Shown here one piece after another: positions 1 through 6,442 of a stretch of 36,821 nt of DNA. Each line of letters opens with the position of its first letter. The first letter of the stretch is position 1. The notes under the pieces are model-generated. The model did not search any database. It was not told where the DNA came from and saw nothing but the letters and a program-made list of their open reading frames with translations. Both the position numbers and the translations under genes were made by a program. This DNA comes from an uncultured Clostridia bacterium (GTDB taxonomy: Bacteria; Bacillota; Clostridia; Christensenellales; Borkfalkiaceae): NCBI GenBank assembly GCA_947629345.1, contig CANRDK010000004.1, forward strand, positions 1-36,821. The letters are read 5' to 3'.

Positions 1-2040
1 GTTGTGGACGATGTGCTCTGCCTCGAAGCGGGCCAGCAGATCCCCGCGGACTGCGTGCTTGCAGAGGGGGTCGTGGAGTGCAACGAGTCCCTCCTCACGG
101 GCGAGAGCGTTCCCGTCAAGAAGGAAATCGGGGACATGATGTATGCGGGCTCCTTCGTTGCGAGCGGCGCATGCCGCGTGCGCGTTGAAAAAGTCGGGCG
201 GGGGACCTACCTCAATTCCCTCACCTCCCGTGCCAAGAAGTACAAGAAACCGCGGTCGGAGATCATGAATTCCATCCATCTCTTCATCCGCATCATTGCC
301 GTGCTCATCGTCATCATCTCGGCGATCACGGCATTCACGAGCTGGAAGGGCTCTGCCGACCTCGCCCTCGAAACGCGGGAGCGGCTCAACGCAACCATCA
401 TTGCAACGGCGGCAGTCGTCATCGGCATGATCCCCTCGGGACTGCTCCTGCTCACCTCGATTGCAATGGCCGCGGGCGTCAGGCGGCTCGCCAAGAAGAA
501 TACCCTCGTGCAGGACCTCTACTCCCTCGAAATGCTCGCCCGCGTGGACGTGCTCTGTCTCGACAAGACGGGCACCATCACCGACGGCAGGATGACGGTC
601 AACGACTGCATGATCCTCAACAATTACACGGACTATACCCTCGAGGATATCATGGGTTCCATGCTCCTCTCCCTTGAGGACAACAACCAGACGTCCATCG
701 CGCTCGAGGCAAGATTCGGGCACTCCACCGCCCTGCATGCAACGGCAAAGATCCCCTTCTCCTCCAAGAGAAAGCTCTCCGCCGTCAGCTTTGGGGAAGT
801 GGGGACATTTGTGATGGGGGCTCCCGAATTTGTCCTCCGCCCCATGCCCCCCAAGATCGAAAAGATCGTCAAGCAATACGCGCAGTCGGGGCTCCGCGTC
901 CTCGTCCTCGCCTATTCCCCCTCACAGATCTCGGGGGAGAAGATCCCCTCGCTGCTTCGCCCCATGGCGATCATCACCCTCGCAGACAATGTGCGTCCCG
1001 ACGCCGTGAACACCATCAAGTGGTTCCGCGACAACGAGGTGGAGATCAAGATCATCTCGGGGGACAATCCCGTGACCGTATCCGAAGTTGCAAGAAGAGT
1101 GGGCGTGAAGAATGCCTCGAACTACATTTCCCTCGACGGGCTCACCGAGGTGGAAGTGCAGAATGTGGCAACGCAGTACACCGTATTCGGCCGTGTCACC
1201 CCCGAACAGAAGGCCATCTTGGTGCAGACCCTCAAAAAACAGGGCTCGACCGTGGCCATGACGGGGGACGGCGTCAACGATATCCTCGCCCTCAAGGAGG
1301 CCGACTGCGCCATCTCCGTCGCCTCGGGCAGCGAGGCCGCAAGGAATGTCTCCCACCTCGTCCTCACCGACAATAACTTCATGAATCTGCCCTCTGTCGT
1401 GTATGAGGGGCGGCGGGTCATCAACAATATCAAGTCCTCCGCGGCCCTCTATATCACAAAGACGCTCTTCATCACCATGCTCGCGATCTTGTGTGCCTGC
1501 ATACAGCAGCCCTACTTCTTCCAGCCGAGCAACATGCTCCTGTTTGAAGTGCTCGTTGCGGCATTCCCCTCCGCCGTCGTCACGATCTTCCAGCCGAATG
1601 CGGCCAAGGTCAAGGGGAAATTCATTCCCTTTGTCATGTCGCGAAGTATCCCCGGGGCAATCACCCTCATTCTGTGTATTCTCACGGTGTATCTCGGGAA
1701 CTTCTTCTGGCCTGAACAGTTTATGGGGACGGTCGCGGGGGAGACGCAGTCCCTCATGACGCCCATGATGACGCTTGCCATCTCCTTCGGCGGGCTCGTC
1801 ATTCTGTATCGTATTTTGCAGCCCTTCAACCTTCTCAGGGGGATCGTGTATGCTATCTCCGTGGGCGTGACCATTCTCGTATTCTCCGTGCCCGTGCTCG
1901 GCAATATCATCTATGCGGGCTGGAGCACGGTGGAGCTCGGCTTCACGCAGGTGCTGTATATCATCGCGATCATCTTGGCGGCCTTCCCCGTCTCGGGCGC
2001 CCTCGTCAAACTCTGCGACATGATGAATCCCTCGGAATAG
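1..2040 (+). CDS. CtpE-type cation-transporting P-type ATPase, 5' end outside window
   Basis: ATP-driven cation pump of the HAD P-type ATPase superfamily, in the plasma membrane. The frame is open from base 1 and begins inside the actuator domain, so roughly the first hundred residues lie upstream. Counting from the GTG at base 4, the actuator TGES motif is at 32-35, an M4 IPSG motif at 143-146, the phosphorylation site DKTGT at 187-191, and TGDGVND of the P domain follows. The C-terminal third has about six membrane segments. The sequence joining M4 to DKTGT resembles CtpE-like pumps; mycobacterial CtpE is linked to calcium uptake. SERCA-type pumps have Glu in M4 where this protein has Ser, so ion specificity cannot be read off. 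Family is confident; substrate is not. Confidence 0.9.
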   Translation, partial: VVDDVLCLEAGQQIPADCVLAEGVVECNESLLTGESVPVKKEIGDMMYAGSFVASGACRVRVEKVGRGTYLNSLTSRAKKYKKPRSEIMNSIHLFIRIIAVLIVIISAITAFTSWKGSADLALETRERLNATIIATAAVVIGMIPSGLLLLTSIAMAAGVRRLAKKNTLVQDLYSLEMLARVDVLCLDKTGTITDGRMTVNDCMILNNYTDYTLEDIMGSMLLSLEDNNQTSIALEARFGHSTALHATAKIPFSSKRKLSAVSFGEVGTFVMGAPEFVLRPMPPKIEKIVKQYAQSGLRVLVLAYSPSQISGEKIPSLLRPMAIITLADNVRPDAVNTIKWFRDNEVEIKIISGDNPVTVSEVARRVGVKNASNYISLDGLTEVEVQNVATQYTVFGRVTPEQKAILVQTLKKQGSTVAMTGDGVNDILALKEADCAISVASGSEAARNVSHLVLTDNNFMNLPSVVYEGRRVINNIKSSAALYITKTLFITMLAILCACIQQPYFFQPSNMLLFEVLVAAFPSAVVTIFQPNAAKVKGKFIPFVMSRSIPGAITLILCILTVYLGNFFWPEQFMGTVAGETQSLMTPMMTLAISFGGLVILYRILQPFNLLRGIVYAISVGVTILVFSVPVLGNIIYAGWSTVELGFTQVLYIIAIILAAFPVSGALVKLCDMMNPSE

Positions 2041-2071
2041 CGTTTCCTTCTTTGGGGAGAGGAGGGCTCCC

Positions 2072-2290
2072 TTGCTTCCCCTCTTAGGGGAAGTACCCGC
2101 GTAGCGGGGGATAGGGTTCTCCCCCTCAGTCACGCGGCCGTACGAAGTCCCTTGCCCACCCCTCGAGGGGTGGGTGCCCCGTAGGGGCGGAAGGGGTGTC
2201 ATAACCCCTCAGTCACTACGTGACTGCTCCCCTAAAAGGGGAGCCGAGGCTTGCCGCAATTTTTAATTTTTAATTTTAAATTTTTAATTT
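2072..2290. repeat. Repeat cluster: two four-stem elements plus AT-rich boundary
   Basis: Between the ATPase stop and the terminator lie a four-stem element (TTCCCCT/AGGGGAA stem at about 2076, CCCGC/GCGGG stem at about 2096) and a second related copy from about 2151 to 2250 ending in a CTCCCCT/AGGGGAG stem. From 2258 to 2290 there is an AT-rich tract built on the 7-base unit AATTTTT. No ORF here looks real. Confidence 0.8.
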
Positions 2291-2321
2291 AAAAAACCGC
2301 TCCCGTGGGAGCGGGTTTTTT
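2291..2321. terminator. Bidirectional intrinsic terminator
   Basis: Perfect 8-bp stem CCGCTCCC (2297-2304) and GGGAGCGG (2307-2314) with a 2-base loop. It is preceded by six A and followed by six T, so it can stop transcription on either strand. It sits between the convergent ATPase and metallophosphoesterase genes; the stop codon of the latter (2320-2322) overlaps the T tract. Confidence 0.85.
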
Positions 2322-3042
2322 ATGCAAAGATCGTGACGATGGGAATGTGCGGCGGGTCGTTGATGCGGAAGGGAAAGCGGCTCCGTCCGATCCCGCGGGA
2401 GACGACAAGGTCCGTCCCCTCGGCAATGGGATAGAGCCCCGAGGTGTACTTCGGAAAGAGCCCCTGATCGGGCGCATAGATCCCGTGTCCGAACACGCGG
2501 AACTGTCCCCCGTGCGCATGGCCCGAAAAGATATAGTCGGGGCGAAGGATCTGTGCATGTTCCCCCGCACGCTCGGGATGATGGGCAAGCAATATCTTCA
2601 CGCCCTTGCCCTCAAAGCGGGGCGCACCCTCCCTCTCCGTATCGCCTGCGATGAGCAAAACTTCTCCGCCAACGGTGAAGGAGAGGCATCTCCCCGTGAC
2701 GTCGTGCACGCCGCAGTCCCTTAAAAGTTCAAAGATCTCTCCCCGCTGCCTGTGGCGGTATTCGTGGTTCCCCTCCGAAAAGAACACGGGCATGAGGGCG
2801 CTGAGCCCCTCCAAAAACTCCCGTGCGCCGCATGAGGCAAGGTCTGCCTTTCGCCACACGAGGTCCCCCGTGACAAAGGCAACGTCCACATTCCTCTCCT
2901 CGAGTTCCCGCAGAATGAGGGCGGGATCGGCACGCTGCCGCGGAAAGTGCAGATCGCTTAAGATGGCTGCCCTGATTGAACTTTCCCCCTGTCCGAGGCT
3001 GAACTCCTCATAGTCGATACGCTTGTTCTCGAAAATTCCCAT
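2320..3042 (-). CDS. Calcineurin-like metallophosphoesterase (YkuE-like)
   Basis: A 240-residue metal-dependent phosphoesterase. The metal-binding signature is complete: DLH at 30-32, GD at 59-60, GNHEY at 91-95, H154 and GHAHGGQ at 174-180. This order and the GHAHGGQ ending match the YkuE/YaeI group, which is usually membrane-tethered and includes enzymes acting on lipid A precursors or UDP-sugar lipids. No N-terminal membrane segment is present, so this form is probably cytosolic or peripheral. The ATG at 3042 has no Shine-Dalgarno site, and a good promoter ends six bases before it, which suggests a leaderless transcript. It lies 44 bases downstream of mutY on the same strand. The physiological substrate cannot be inferred. 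Confidence 0.88.
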   Translation of the reverse strand: MGIFENKRIDYEEFSLGQGESSIRAAILSDLHFPRQRADPALILRELEERNVDVAFVTGDLVWRKADLASCGAREFLEGLSALMPVFFSEGNHEYRHRQRGEIFELLRDCGVHDVTGRCLSFTVGGEVLLIAGDTEREGAPRFEGKGVKILLAHHPERAGEHAQILRPDYIFSGHAHGGQFRVFGHGIYAPDQGLFPKYTSGLYPIAEGTDLVVSRGIGRSRFPFRINDPPHIPIVTIFA

Positions 3043-3048
3043 ACTTCC

Positions 3049-3076
3049 ATTATATGCCGCGGATATGCCCTTTCAA
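3049..3076 (-). promoter_or_regulatory. Sigma-A promoter abutting the metallophosphoesterase start
   Basis: Minus-strand -35 TTGAAA (3071-3076), 16-base spacer, -10 TATAAT (3049-3054). Only six bases separate the -10 from the ATG at 3042, so the expected transcription start is at or next to the A of the start codon. Confidence 0.65.
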
Positions 3077-3086
3077 ACCAATGGGA

Positions 3087-4370
3087 TCACTTGAGCCACA
3101 CGCGAAAGGCCTTGAATGCGGAGGGAATGGCAAAGTTTTGGCGGATCTCCTCTGCCGTCGCCCAGAGAAACGCGGGGTCGGGCGTTTCGGTCTCGATGAG
3201 GTAGCCCGTCATGCGCCACTCCACATGGGTGAACACATGCGTCGCGTTCTTTTGGGCGAGGAGGGTGCCCTTCTGCGTCATTCCGAGCGCATGCGAGGGA
3301 TCCCCTTGTATCGACAGGCCTCCGTCAGTTTTATGAGATCCTTCGCTACGCTCAGGATGAGCGCGCCCGGGGGAGGCTCTTTCGCCCACTACTTGAGCGT
3401 CCCCTCTCATGCCCCCTCCTTGTGTGGCCCCTCTCATGCCCCCTCCTTGGGAAGGCTCGGTCATGCCCCCTCCTTGGGGAGGCTCGGTCATGCCCCCTCC
3501 TTGGGCGTCCCCACTCATGCCCCCTCCTTGGGAGGGCTCGGTCATGCCCCCTCCTTGGGGAGGGGGGTAGGGGGGTGGGGAAACCTCATTCGGGAACTCC
3601 CACAGCCCCTTTAAGAGCCCCTCTTCCCGCTTGCGAATGGCATACTTTCCGCCGCACTTCAGCACATACACGTTGAGATATTCCACCCGCCGCGGCCTCT
3701 TCTCCGCACGGACGGGAAAGTCCTCCTCCCTTCCCTCGAGATGGGCACGGCAGAGGGTATTCCACGGGCACTGTTCGCACAACGGAGCGCCGTTGGGGAC
3801 ACAGACGATCGCGCCGAGCTCCATGAGCCCCTCACAGAAATCGGCCGTCTCGTCGGGATAGACCGCCCGCAAAACTTCCGTAAATTTCCTCTTTGCAGCG
3901 TCGTCGATGACGCTGTCGTCCGCAAAAAACCGCGTGAGAATGCGCAGAACGTTGCCGTCCACGGCGGGTTCCTTGAGTCCCAAAGCAATGGACGAAAGCG
4001 CCCCCGCGGTGTAATTTCCAACACCCGCCAAGGCATTTACCCCCACCCATGTCTGGGGGGTACCCTCCCGAAAAAGCGTCTCGGCGGCCCTTTTGAGGTT
4101 GCGGGCACGGGTGTAGTAGCCAAGCCCCTCCCACGCCTTCATGACCTCGTCCTCGGAGGCGAGTGCGAGCTCCCTTTCGGTGGGGAACTTTTCGAGAAAG
4201 GCGACGTATTTTTCCTTGACAGCCTCCACCCGCGTCTGCTGGAGCATGAGCTCTGCGACGAGGGCGGTGTAGAACGTCCTGTTGTGCCGCCACGGGAGAT
4301 CCCGCTTATTTTGGCGGAACCACTGGAGCAGCCTCGGCACCGCCTGTTGTAATGTTTCGATATCGGTCAT
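3087..4370 (-). CDS. mutY: Adenine DNA glycosylase MutY with in-frame repeat insertion
   Basis: Removes adenine mispaired with 8-oxoguanine. The 427-residue protein has an intact catalytic half: Glu40 in the AELMLQQT motif, a helix-hairpin-helix around 112-125, catalytic Asp138 in VDGN, and a 4Fe-4S cluster set Cys190, 198, 201, 207. The NUDIX-like C-terminal domain starts near 229 and is cut at about residue 264 by some 100 residues translated from intergenic repeats (nine-residue QGGGM units, then an HPERSEGS hairpin peptide). It resumes near 366 with the conserved HVFTHVEW segment. Frame is kept throughout. The family is usually about 350 residues, so the excess equals the insert. The ATG has no clear Shine-Dalgarno site and an AT-rich repeat begins six bases upstream. 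Glycosylase activity is expected; 8-oxoG recognition may be altered. Confidence 0.95.
   Translation of the reverse strand: MTDIETLQQAVPRLLQWFRQNKRDLPWRHNRTFYTALVAELMLQQTRVEAVKEKYVAFLEKFPTERELALASEDEVMKAWEGLGYYTRARNLKRAAETLFREGTPQTWVGVNALAGVGNYTAGALSSIALGLKEPAVDGNVLRILTRFFADDSVIDDAAKRKFTEVLRAVYPDETADFCEGLMELGAIVCVPNGAPLCEQCPWNTLCRAHLEGREEDFPVRAEKRPRRVEYLNVYVLKCGGKYAIRKREEGLLKGLWEFPNEVSPPPYPPPQGGGMTEPSQGGGMSGDAQGGGMTEPPQGGGMTEPSQGGGMRGATQGGGMRGDAQVVGERASPGRAHPERSEGSHKTDGGLSIQGDPSHALGMTQKGTLLAQKNATHVFTHVEWRMTGYLIETETPDPAFLWATAEEIRQNFAIPSAFKAFRVWLK
3277..3363. repeat. Long imperfect hairpin repeat inside mutY
   Basis: An arm beginning GTCATTCCGAGCGC near 3277 pairs imperfectly with an arm ending CGCTCAGGATGAGC near 3363. 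This is the same hairpin family found between genes elsewhere in the window. Read on the minus strand in the mutY frame it gives HPERSEGSHKT and then DPSHALGMTQ. Confidence 0.8.
3408..3569. repeat. 27-bp tandem repeat array inside mutY
   Basis: Six units with an exact 27-base period, seen from the core CATGCCCCCTCCTT at 3408, 3435, 3462, 3489, 3516 and 3543. Units differ mainly in a nine-base variable part. Because 27 is divisible by three, each unit adds nine residues (QGGGM plus four variable residues) and changes in copy number keep the frame. The array borders a PPPQGGG-type GC-rich element at about 3559-3580. Confidence 0.92.
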
Positions 4371-4375
4371 GGGGA

Positions 4376-4775
4376 AATTAAAAATTAAAAATTAAAAATT
4401 GTGGTGGGGGGCTCTTGGCTCCCCTCTTAGGGGAGCTGTCACGCAGTGACTGAGGGGTTTTTAGAAACCCTATCCCCCCTTCGGGGTACTTCCCCTAAGA
4501 GGGGAAGCAAGGGAACTACGCGCTCGTGCCGCGCTTAGCGAGCGGATCTCGTAAACTTACGGACTTCCGTTCTTAAAGCGAGATTCTCTCGCCCCTTCGG
4601 GGCTCGGAATGAGGGAACGGGCTCCCGTGCGGACCCCGTTCAAGGGCGTACCCCCACCCCTACCCCGCCCCCTTACGCAGGGGGCGGGCAAGAGGGACGG
4701 CCGAACGAAGTCCCCTTGCCCACCCCTAAGAGGGGTGGGTGGCACGGCTGCCCTTGCCGTGACGGAAGGGGTGTC
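4376..4775. repeat. Repeat cluster between fhs and mutY
   Basis: This 400-base gap holds only repeats. An AT-rich (AAAAATT)n block at 4377-4400 faces inward with GTGG. A reverse-oriented four-stem element follows at about 4411-4514 (GTCAC/GTGAC stem at 4438-4450), then a GCGAGATTCTCTCGCC-type hairpin at about 4540-4615, a GC-rich hairpin around 4640-4700, and a half copy of the four-stem element at about 4705-4772. No gene or clear terminator was found. Confidence 0.8.
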
Positions 4776-4777
4776 AA

Positions 4778-6442
4778 TTAAAACAGCCCTACGATTCTCC
4801 CGCTCCCATCCACGTCAATGCGGCAGGCGGCGGGGGATTTGGGGAGCCCCGGCATGGTAAGAATATTGCCCGTCAGCGCGACAATAAATCCCGCCCCCGC
4901 GGCAACCTTCACCTCCCGCACCGTGATGAAAAAGTCCTCGGGCGCGCCGAGCTTTGCCGCGTCATCCGAAAAGGAATACTGCGTCTTTGCGACGCAGACG
5001 GGCAGGTTCCCGAAGCCCAGCCCCTCCAGCCGCTCGATCTCCTTCTCCGCCTCGGGGGTATACTTCACCCCCCTTCCGCCGTAAATTTTGGTCGCAAGCG
5101 CATGAAGTTTCTCCCTGATGGGGAGCTCCAAGCCGTAGCAGTACGAAAAATCGTTCTTCTCCCCGCACAGCCGCACGACCTCCTCCGCGAGCGCAACGCC
5201 GCCCTTTCCCCCTTCCGCCCAAACGGTAGAGAGCACGACATTGACGCCGAGCGCACGGCACTTCTCCATGACGAGGGAGATCTCCGCATCCGTATCGCCG
5301 GGGAAGCGGTTGATCGCGACGACGGCGGGGAGATGATACACATTCTTGATATTGGAAAGGTGGCGAAGCAGGTTGGGAAGCCCCTTCTCGAGGGCGGTAA
5401 GGTCCTCATTTCCAAGCTCCGTCTTTTCGAGCCCGCCGTGCATCTTGAGGGCGCGAACGGTGGCGACGATGACGACGGCGCTCGGTTTCAGCCCTGCGGC
5501 ACGGCACTTGATGTCGAGGAACTTCTCAGCTCCCAAATCTGCCCCGAAGCCCGCCTCCGTGACGACGTAGTCCCCAAGTTTCAGGGCCGTCTTGGTCGCA
5601 ATGACGGAGTTACATCCGTGGGCGATATTAGCGAAGGGCCCGCCGTGGACGAGCGCAGGCGTTCCCCCGAGGGTCTGAACGAGGTTGGGCTTCAGGGCAT
5701 CCTTCAAGAGGGCCGCCATGGCCCCCGCCGCCTTGAGGTCCCCCGCCGTGACGGGTTCCCCATCGTAAGTGTAGCCGACGATGATGCGGGAAAGACGGGT
5801 CTTGAGGTCGGAAAGGGAAGTTGCAAGGCACAGAACTGCCATGACCTCGCTCGCGACGGTGATGTCGAAGCCGTCTTTCCGCGGGACGCCGTTTTTGCCC
5901 CCGCCGAGGCCGTCCTCGATGGAGCGCAGCTGGCGGTCGTTCATGTCCACACAGCGCTTCCATGTGATCTTTGCGGGGTCGATGTTGAGCTCATTCCCCT
6001 GAAAGATATGATTGTCGAGCATGGCAGCGAGCAGATTATTCGCCGCGCCGATGGCATGAAAATCCCCCGTGAAGTGCAGATTGATGTCCTCCATGGGGAC
6101 GACCTGCGCGTATCCGCCCCCTGCGGCTCCCCCCTTGATGCCGAATACGGGCCCGAGAGAGGGCTCTCGGAGGGCGACCACGGTCTTTTTGCCGAGAAGG
6201 GCAAGGCCGTCTGCGAGGCCGATGGTGGTAGTCGTCTTCCCCTCCCCCGCGGGCGTCGGCGTGATGGCTGTGACGAGAATGAGCTTGCCGTTCTCCCCCT
6301 CACGGTCCATGACGGAGAGATCGATCTTGGCCTTATATTTGCCGTAGTACTCGATCTCGTCCTCGGAGAGGCCGACCTTCTGTGCGATTTTGAGGATATG
6401 CTGCAATTTTGCCGCCTGTGCGATCTCGATATCCGACTCCAT
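4778..6442 (-). CDS. fhs: Formate-tetrahydrofolate ligase
   Basis: Makes 10-formyl-THF from formate, THF and ATP in the cytosol, feeding purine synthesis and, in acetogens, the methyl branch of the Wood-Ljungdahl pathway. At 554 residues it is full length. The P-loop TPAGEGKTT lies at 63-71, followed by the conserved [18 protein letters not shown] segment; the C-terminus ends in a conserved [10 protein letters not shown] segment. The start ATG at 6442 has an AGGAGG site five bases upstream and a TTGACA promoter. GlyA is also in this window but not adjacent; both supply one-carbon units. No other acetogenesis gene is visible, so acetogenesis cannot be claimed. Confidence 0.97.

Follow-up and report, generated by a model that had tools for sequence, protein, structure and literature searches.

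How can a gene for a DNA repair enzyme take up intergenic repeats and still be read from end to end? The question is raised by mutY, the gene of the adenine DNA glycosylase MutY, on a 36.8-kb stretch of DNA, hereafter the window, which is the entire contig C4 of genome G000, a member of Candidatus Gallimonas, a genus of gut Clostridia. The gene comprises 427 codons without a stop, reading from 4370 to 3087 on the minus strand. A first-pass annotation of the window had claimed that two families of intergenic repeats have entered mutY in frame, and this is confirmed by the open frame and by genome-wide matches: the insert consists of the genome's own high-copy dispersed intergenic repeats, of two kinds, which are read in frame within mutY. 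The borders proposed at that stage, 3277–3580, agree closely with those found here (3273–3578), which are precise to within a few codons. The features are as follows.

3087..4370, minus strand: mutY, adenine DNA glycosylase of 427 residues, frame open across the insert.
3273..3578, minus strand: in-frame repeat insert, residues 265–366, about 102 extra residues, delimited by linker comparison with relatives and by the predicted local distance difference test (pLDDT).
3540..3578: end of repeat family A (CCCCACCCCCCTACCCCCCTCC...GGAGGGGG), read PPPYPPPQGGG, recognised by sequence; the corresponding end in genome G051 matches stretches of G000.
3401..3559: 27-bp tandem array with six core copies at a spacing of 27, coding for nine-residue units of the QGGGM type, detected by Tandem Repeats Finder (TRF).
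About 3275..3364: long hairpin repeat, in-frame reading HPERSEGSHKTDGGLSIQGDPSHALGMTQ, recognised by folding and genome matches.
3087..3272, minus strand: portion of the NUDIX-like domain that follows the insert, NUDIX_4 stretch at residues 362–422, pLDDT mostly above 90.
3225..3233, minus strand: FTH codons, residues 380–382, counterpart of the FSH motif by alignment.

The insert and the protein that carries it

The insert begins with the end of the GC-rich family A, which is followed by the 27-bp array, a short junction and the long hairpin. The family-A-like end of the insert in G051 finds many matching stretches of 36–41 bases in genome G000. The array is described by TRF as 5.9 copies of a 27-bp period, and also as 1.9 copies of an 81-bp period (93%); when up to two mismatches are allowed, 85 copies of its core are counted across the genome, the six in mutY among them, against none for the reversed control. 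For the hairpin segment, at least 59 genome matches were found, including itself and mostly partial, among the 40 of 280 candidates that were scored; its fold of −48.1 kcal/mol (z −5.1) was equalled by none of 200 shuffles. All five spacings of the mutY array, which is one single array, are 27 and thus divisible by three, compared with two of the 16 spacings from the rest of G000, and the period is divisible by three in 12 of 28 TRF arrays.

The intergenic DNA near mutY (2041–2300 and 4380–4780) is dense in other repeats, including the CTTCCCCTCTTAGGGGAAG palindrome (family B) and AATTTTT runs. A search of Rfam over positions 2000–4900 returned a chance microRNA match alone, whose 24.9 bits fall short of the gathering score of 95.

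With regard to the protein, Pfam recognises an HhH-GPD domain at residues 38–165 and a NUDIX_4 domain split in two stretches, the best at 362–422. The first-pass annotation had placed the repetitive loop in the domain recognising 8-oxoguanine (8-oxoG), which holds in so far as the insert lies inside the NUDIX-like domain, but the FTH motif itself (F380–H382), which we take to be equivalent to the FSH motif sensing 8-oxoG, is untouched. F380 and H382 are invariant among 64 aligned sequences and T381 is nearly so. Also invariant in this alignment are E40 and D138, the catalytic Glu and Asp of MutY, and C190, C198, C201 and C207, the cysteines of its Fe–S cluster, so that the annotated integrity of these residues is borne out. 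Structure prediction points to a fold left intact by a disordered insert: a whole-protein MutY fold including the C-terminal domain is predicted for the window MutY, with pLDDT below 50 at residues 274–356 and 358–362, where the insert runs disordered between confident strands. In the model, it joins the strand leading to the FTH motif at its opposite end. The window MutY scores 253.8 against the NCBIfam model TIGR01084, below the cut-off of 286.5; since the insert-free relatives P0003 (255.0; 333 residues long), P0010 (260.3) and P0039 (270.7) also fall below it, the shortfall is not caused by the insert. The outgroup sequence L099 passes with 290.6.

Recurrence and variation at a single loop

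A search of 101 Gallimonas genomes yielded 90 mutY rows, the other 11 genomes, some of them incomplete, giving a partial match (G003), a match at the strength of the Nth paralogue, or none. The C-terminal FTH motif stands in the same open frame in 88 of the 90 rows (87 by pattern, plus the variant L195), and the remaining two stop at a contig edge at or within the insert site. Among 81 automatically measured rows, the linker is 15–25 residues long in 73 and 47–116 in eight, and no row falls in the gap. A slightly different linker measure gives 19–21 residues for L195 and for six rows that the left anchor had missed. In row L035 (G080), 29 inserted residues are followed by the contig end, and the C-terminal part is found on a second contig, at its end and there too within repeat. 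Large inserts are found in 9 of the 90 rows. Thus, eight other Gallimonas metagenome-assembled genomes (MAGs) carry large in-frame inserts at the same site, one of these being cut by a contig end. Assemblies break at or inside this site in G043 (end of C132) and G080 (ends of C88 and C10).

The inserts are of several kinds, namely family A in forward orientation (G000, G051/G080 and G098), family A reversed (G009/G067, and G020 in another clade), family B (G014), and a low-complexity insert (G033). Counted by insert kind, at least four separate acquisitions appear to have taken place. A quick tree of 97 rows, computed with linkers excluded and with 35 of its 94 inner branches weakly supported, gives eight state changes, gains and losses pooled; G043 was left out of this count, as a search run without a control did not recover the rest of its mutY. 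Insert-free near relatives stand beside the bearers, with G088 next to G051 and G080 (support 98), G046 next to G014 (99) and G008 next to G020 (89), and a few short linkers resemble worn repeat remnants when judged by eye.

Three of these inserts were used as queries in repeat searches, in which up to 40 candidates were scored per genome, mutY copies included, and matches were mostly confined to the repeat end or the palindrome. The G051 insert has at least 43 matches in G051, at least 36 in the insert-free G088 and at least 47 in G000. That of G067 has at least 11 in its own genome, at least 50 in G009, at least 19 in G020 and at least 47 in the insert-free G061, while the G014 insert has at least 35 in G014, at least 4 in its insert-free sister G046 and at least 5 in G000.

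Gallimonas MutY linkers are shorter than those of most of 51 measured outgroup MutYs. The model of an outgroup MutY predicts a helix at the place of the insert, and the Gallimonas linkers would be too short to hold it.

Public MutY homologues (120 listed of 7,460 at E up to 1e-60) include P0001, encoded on a 1,767-base contig, which is identical to the window MutY across its 400 residues and lacks exactly 27 residues, that is, three nine-residue units. The copy number of the array thus differs between close relatives, which matches the earlier expectation of changes in nine-codon steps. A near relative, P0002 (395 residues), likewise has three QGGGM units, plus a five-residue gap at the junction, and P0018 and P0019 appear by eye to hold single repeat copies without an array. 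The longest exact run shared by array copies is 29 nt, so an assembler could collapse the array only if it worked with very short words. A natural experiment on proteins gaining segments, with known loops and natural forms open to measurement, is offered by sister species that differ in having the insert and by proteins that are identical except for copy number.

Translated repeats in mnmG and dusB

The idea that mutY was the only gene hit was dropped once a scan of three relatives (1.99 Mb, four repeat motifs) had identified further cases. Among its 132 repeat loci, only seven lie at least 50 codons inside open reading frames (ORFs) of at least 150 residues, compared with about 111 expected from the ORF share alone, a figure for which margins were not subtracted and some ORFs were spurious. 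Genes are therefore subject to strong purging of repeat copies. Recognisable genes with clear repeats account for two of the seven.

L325:17595-19784 (G051): mnmG with an in-frame family-A array in one loop; 749 bits to TIGR00136, cut-off 525.
L421:8470-9621 (G031): dusB with a translated hairpin repeat; 285.0 bits to TIGR00737, just below the cut-off of 293.3.

The G088 counterpart of the G051 MnmG (P0122) has a short stub at the array loop, and an alignment of 12 MnmG proteins shows additional residues there in seven; 112 of 121 MnmG proteins (the query and 120 listed) measure 618–624 residues. The dusB gene of G031 carries the same hairpin as the window mutY, in an identical reading frame (HPERSEGSHK) and flanked by an imperfect direct repeat. 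In 116 measured proteins of the 120 nearest listed, the corresponding DusB segment has 33 residues in 90 and 61–113 in ten, including that of G031 itself, the only one with a known genus of origin; most of the ten long inserts show repeat-like peptides by eye. As inserts of this kind also occur in two unrelated genes, mnmG and dusB, no special role in repair is indicated. A practical caution follows, in that repeat-bearing genes can score low against curated models and assemblies can break there.

A third candidate, L372:12000-17609 (G088), showed no evident repeat peptide, and the four remaining loci had no family match or an ORF of less than 200 residues; none of these was counted. The L372 locus is a large ORF with a resemblance to ProA/Hhe, an anti-phage protein; it scores 1379 bits against NF058533, for which the cut-off is 1500. 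In G000, 15 ORFs of at least 180 residues cover a repeat among 69 fetched loci, two of them being both strands of mutY; among the other 13, a single ORF has a Pfam domain, a PRC barrel at residues 94–158, with the repeat near residue 52.

Explanations weighed and known systems

Downstream of the insert, the median ratio of non-synonymous to synonymous differences (pN/pS) is 0.31 in 11 insert pairs and 0.33 in 13 insert-free pairs, the pairs being hand-chosen and some rows shared between them. Judged by this ratio, the downstream part of the gene is under purifying selection, like that of insert-free pairs. The mutation spectrum was compared in the pair G051/G088, polarised by G031, using the four-fold sites in 30 orthologues out of the 34 triplets identified. 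GC>TA changes amount to 20/290 on the insert-bearing G051 branch against 46/322 on the insert-free G088 branch, and their ratio to other GC-site changes in G051 is 0.42 times that in G088 (gene bootstrap 0.28–0.63). Because a lineage lacking MutY should show more GC>TA and G051 shows less, there is no MutY-loss spectrum in G051. In another respect, neither MutM (Fapy_DNA_glyco) nor OGG_N was matched in four of four genomes (G000, G051, G088 and G043), with controls matched in 8/14 and 3/14, and the usual partners of MutY therefore appear to be missing.

We propose that the insert is probably a tolerated passenger in a permissive loop of the C-terminal NUDIX-like domain, which leaves the enzyme working, and not a tuner of MutY. 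The helix present here in the outgroup model may have been lost in the lineage, leaving a permissive surface loop distant from the active site and the 8-oxoG sensor. Repeats would reach the loop via transposition, gene conversion or recombination, and selection would retain only stop-free copies with a length that is a multiple of three, out-of-frame or harmful ones being removed. Tandem units could then expand or contract in whole codon steps by replication slippage or unequal recombination, and the same filter would allow repeats to persist in loops of mnmG and dusB. Several observations sit less easily with this proposal. The same loop has been hit repeatedly, so a purely passive view must credit its tolerance; two rows of genus g11 have short linkers as well (22 and 24), yet are without repeats; and the inserts of G009 and G020 are shown to be repeated at the family-A end only, the searches having covered those of G051, G067 and G014. 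No mobilising enzyme was found, Y1_Tnp being matched in none of six genomes (MAGs, some incomplete) with its control matched in 5/14, and REP mobility driven by RAYT was set aside on the same result. Furthermore, the spectrum covers a single pair and 30 genes; it argues against MutY having been lost lastingly in G051 and leaves room for a subtle effect.

The first-pass annotation had suggested that length variation could tune the enzyme, as a kind of slow contingency locus. Read as a length dial, the array would change in nine-residue steps, affecting what MutY does or what it binds and thereby tuning the mutation rate. The in-frame copy-number difference between close relatives is what such a dial would produce, and 6-bp repeats in Salmonella mutL that switch mutability offer a precedent (PMC2955026), but the predicted disordered loop beside an intact fold, the insert-free-like constraint and the lower GC>TA share in G051 all run counter to tuning, as do the similar inserts in the tRNA-modification genes mnmG and dusB and the absence of a large insert from most Gallimonas rows, and we regard this explanation as unlikely. 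That the peptide was instead recruited for a new function of MutY, such as partner or nucleic-acid binding, would account for inserts recurring at one place; given that these differ in composition, orientation and frame across lineages and are absent in close relatives, recruitment seems very improbable.

Two further explanations concern the gene itself. An insert marking a mutY on its way to loss could be read from the patchy occurrence of the gene, which is matched at an E value of 1e-50 or lower in just 27 of 74 genomes of the family's other genera, from MutM being without a match in the four Gallimonas genomes mentioned above, and from the 11 of 101 Gallimonas genomes, some incomplete, without a full mutY row. 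Decay is nevertheless quite unlikely in view of the 88 of 90 rows in frame to the C-terminal motif (the other two ending at contig edges), the retained catalytic and cluster residues and the purifying selection downstream of the insert; a pseudogene is likewise disfavoured by open frame and constraint, and a frameshift or stop, looked for in mutY, was not seen. Sampled genomes of nine genera (g2, g4, g7, g8, g9, g13, g14, g16 and g17) gave weak Nth-like matches only. As for an assembly artefact, in which a repeat would have mis-joined two parts of mutY or the array been mis-sized, the window does come from a metagenome assembly, and the assemblies of G043 and G080 do break at or in the insert site. 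However, the insert lies inside the 36.8-kb contig, related in-frame inserts occur in independently assembled genomes and in public proteins, P0001 shares the entire frame, and array copies are identical over 29 nt at most, which makes an artefact barely credible.

Among known systems, the REP, BIME and REPIN families are intergenic palindromes, short and in high copy. The Gallimonas repeats are likewise high-copy, short, palindromic and partly clustered, but they differ by the unmatched Y1 transposase (6/6 genomes) and by some copies lying in frame within genes. Pneumococcal BOX and enterobacterial ERIC elements are small repeats with ORFs or inside genes (PMC10969869), which recalls the small Gallimonas repeats, some of them inside genes; tandem in-frame arrays are not described for them in the available text of that paper, the comparison being one of descriptions only. 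In Salmonella mutL, a copy change of the 6-bp repeat yields a defective allele (PMC2955026). The likeness is that of a tandem repeat in a mutation-avoidance gene, with copy number in whole codons, whereas none of the Gallimonas forms seen has lost the frame, and the single lineage tested gives no sign of MutY loss. A search of titles and abstract starts, with subscription journals mostly outside its range, returned no earlier report of repeats inside MutY or of Gallimonas repeats.

In-frame palindromic repeats within ordinary genes are best known from Rickettsia. The Rickettsia palindromic elements (RPEs), as described in PMC10969869, sit in frame within genes unrelated to one another, and the protein fold is predicted to accommodate them. 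With these, the Gallimonas repeats share a dispersed palindrome (the hairpin above) and the in-frame position of repeats in mutY, mnmG and dusB; they differ by occurring in another phylum, by comprising tandem arrays as well as at least two families, by the reading of family A in both orientations, and by re-use of the same loop between species. A genus of gut Clostridia thus shows a comparable phenomenon in three enzymes, the same loops being occupied by different repeats. Most likely, the Gallimonas repeats work like RPEs, a likeness of manner for which membership is not claimed. It is conceivable, if on balance doubtful, that Gallimonas holds a protein-coding repeat system independent of that of Rickettsia, in which several unrelated families are repeatedly delivered, in either orientation, to a few preferred loops of the nucleic-acid enzymes encoded by mutY, mnmG and dusB and grow in tandem by whole codons into new, variable segments. 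If true, the sensor domain of MutY, a repair enzyme, would vary in length inside one species. As to the single reading frame by which RPEs may be judged, the G000 mutY and the G031 dusB agree in the frame used for the hairpin, and family A is read in both orientations.
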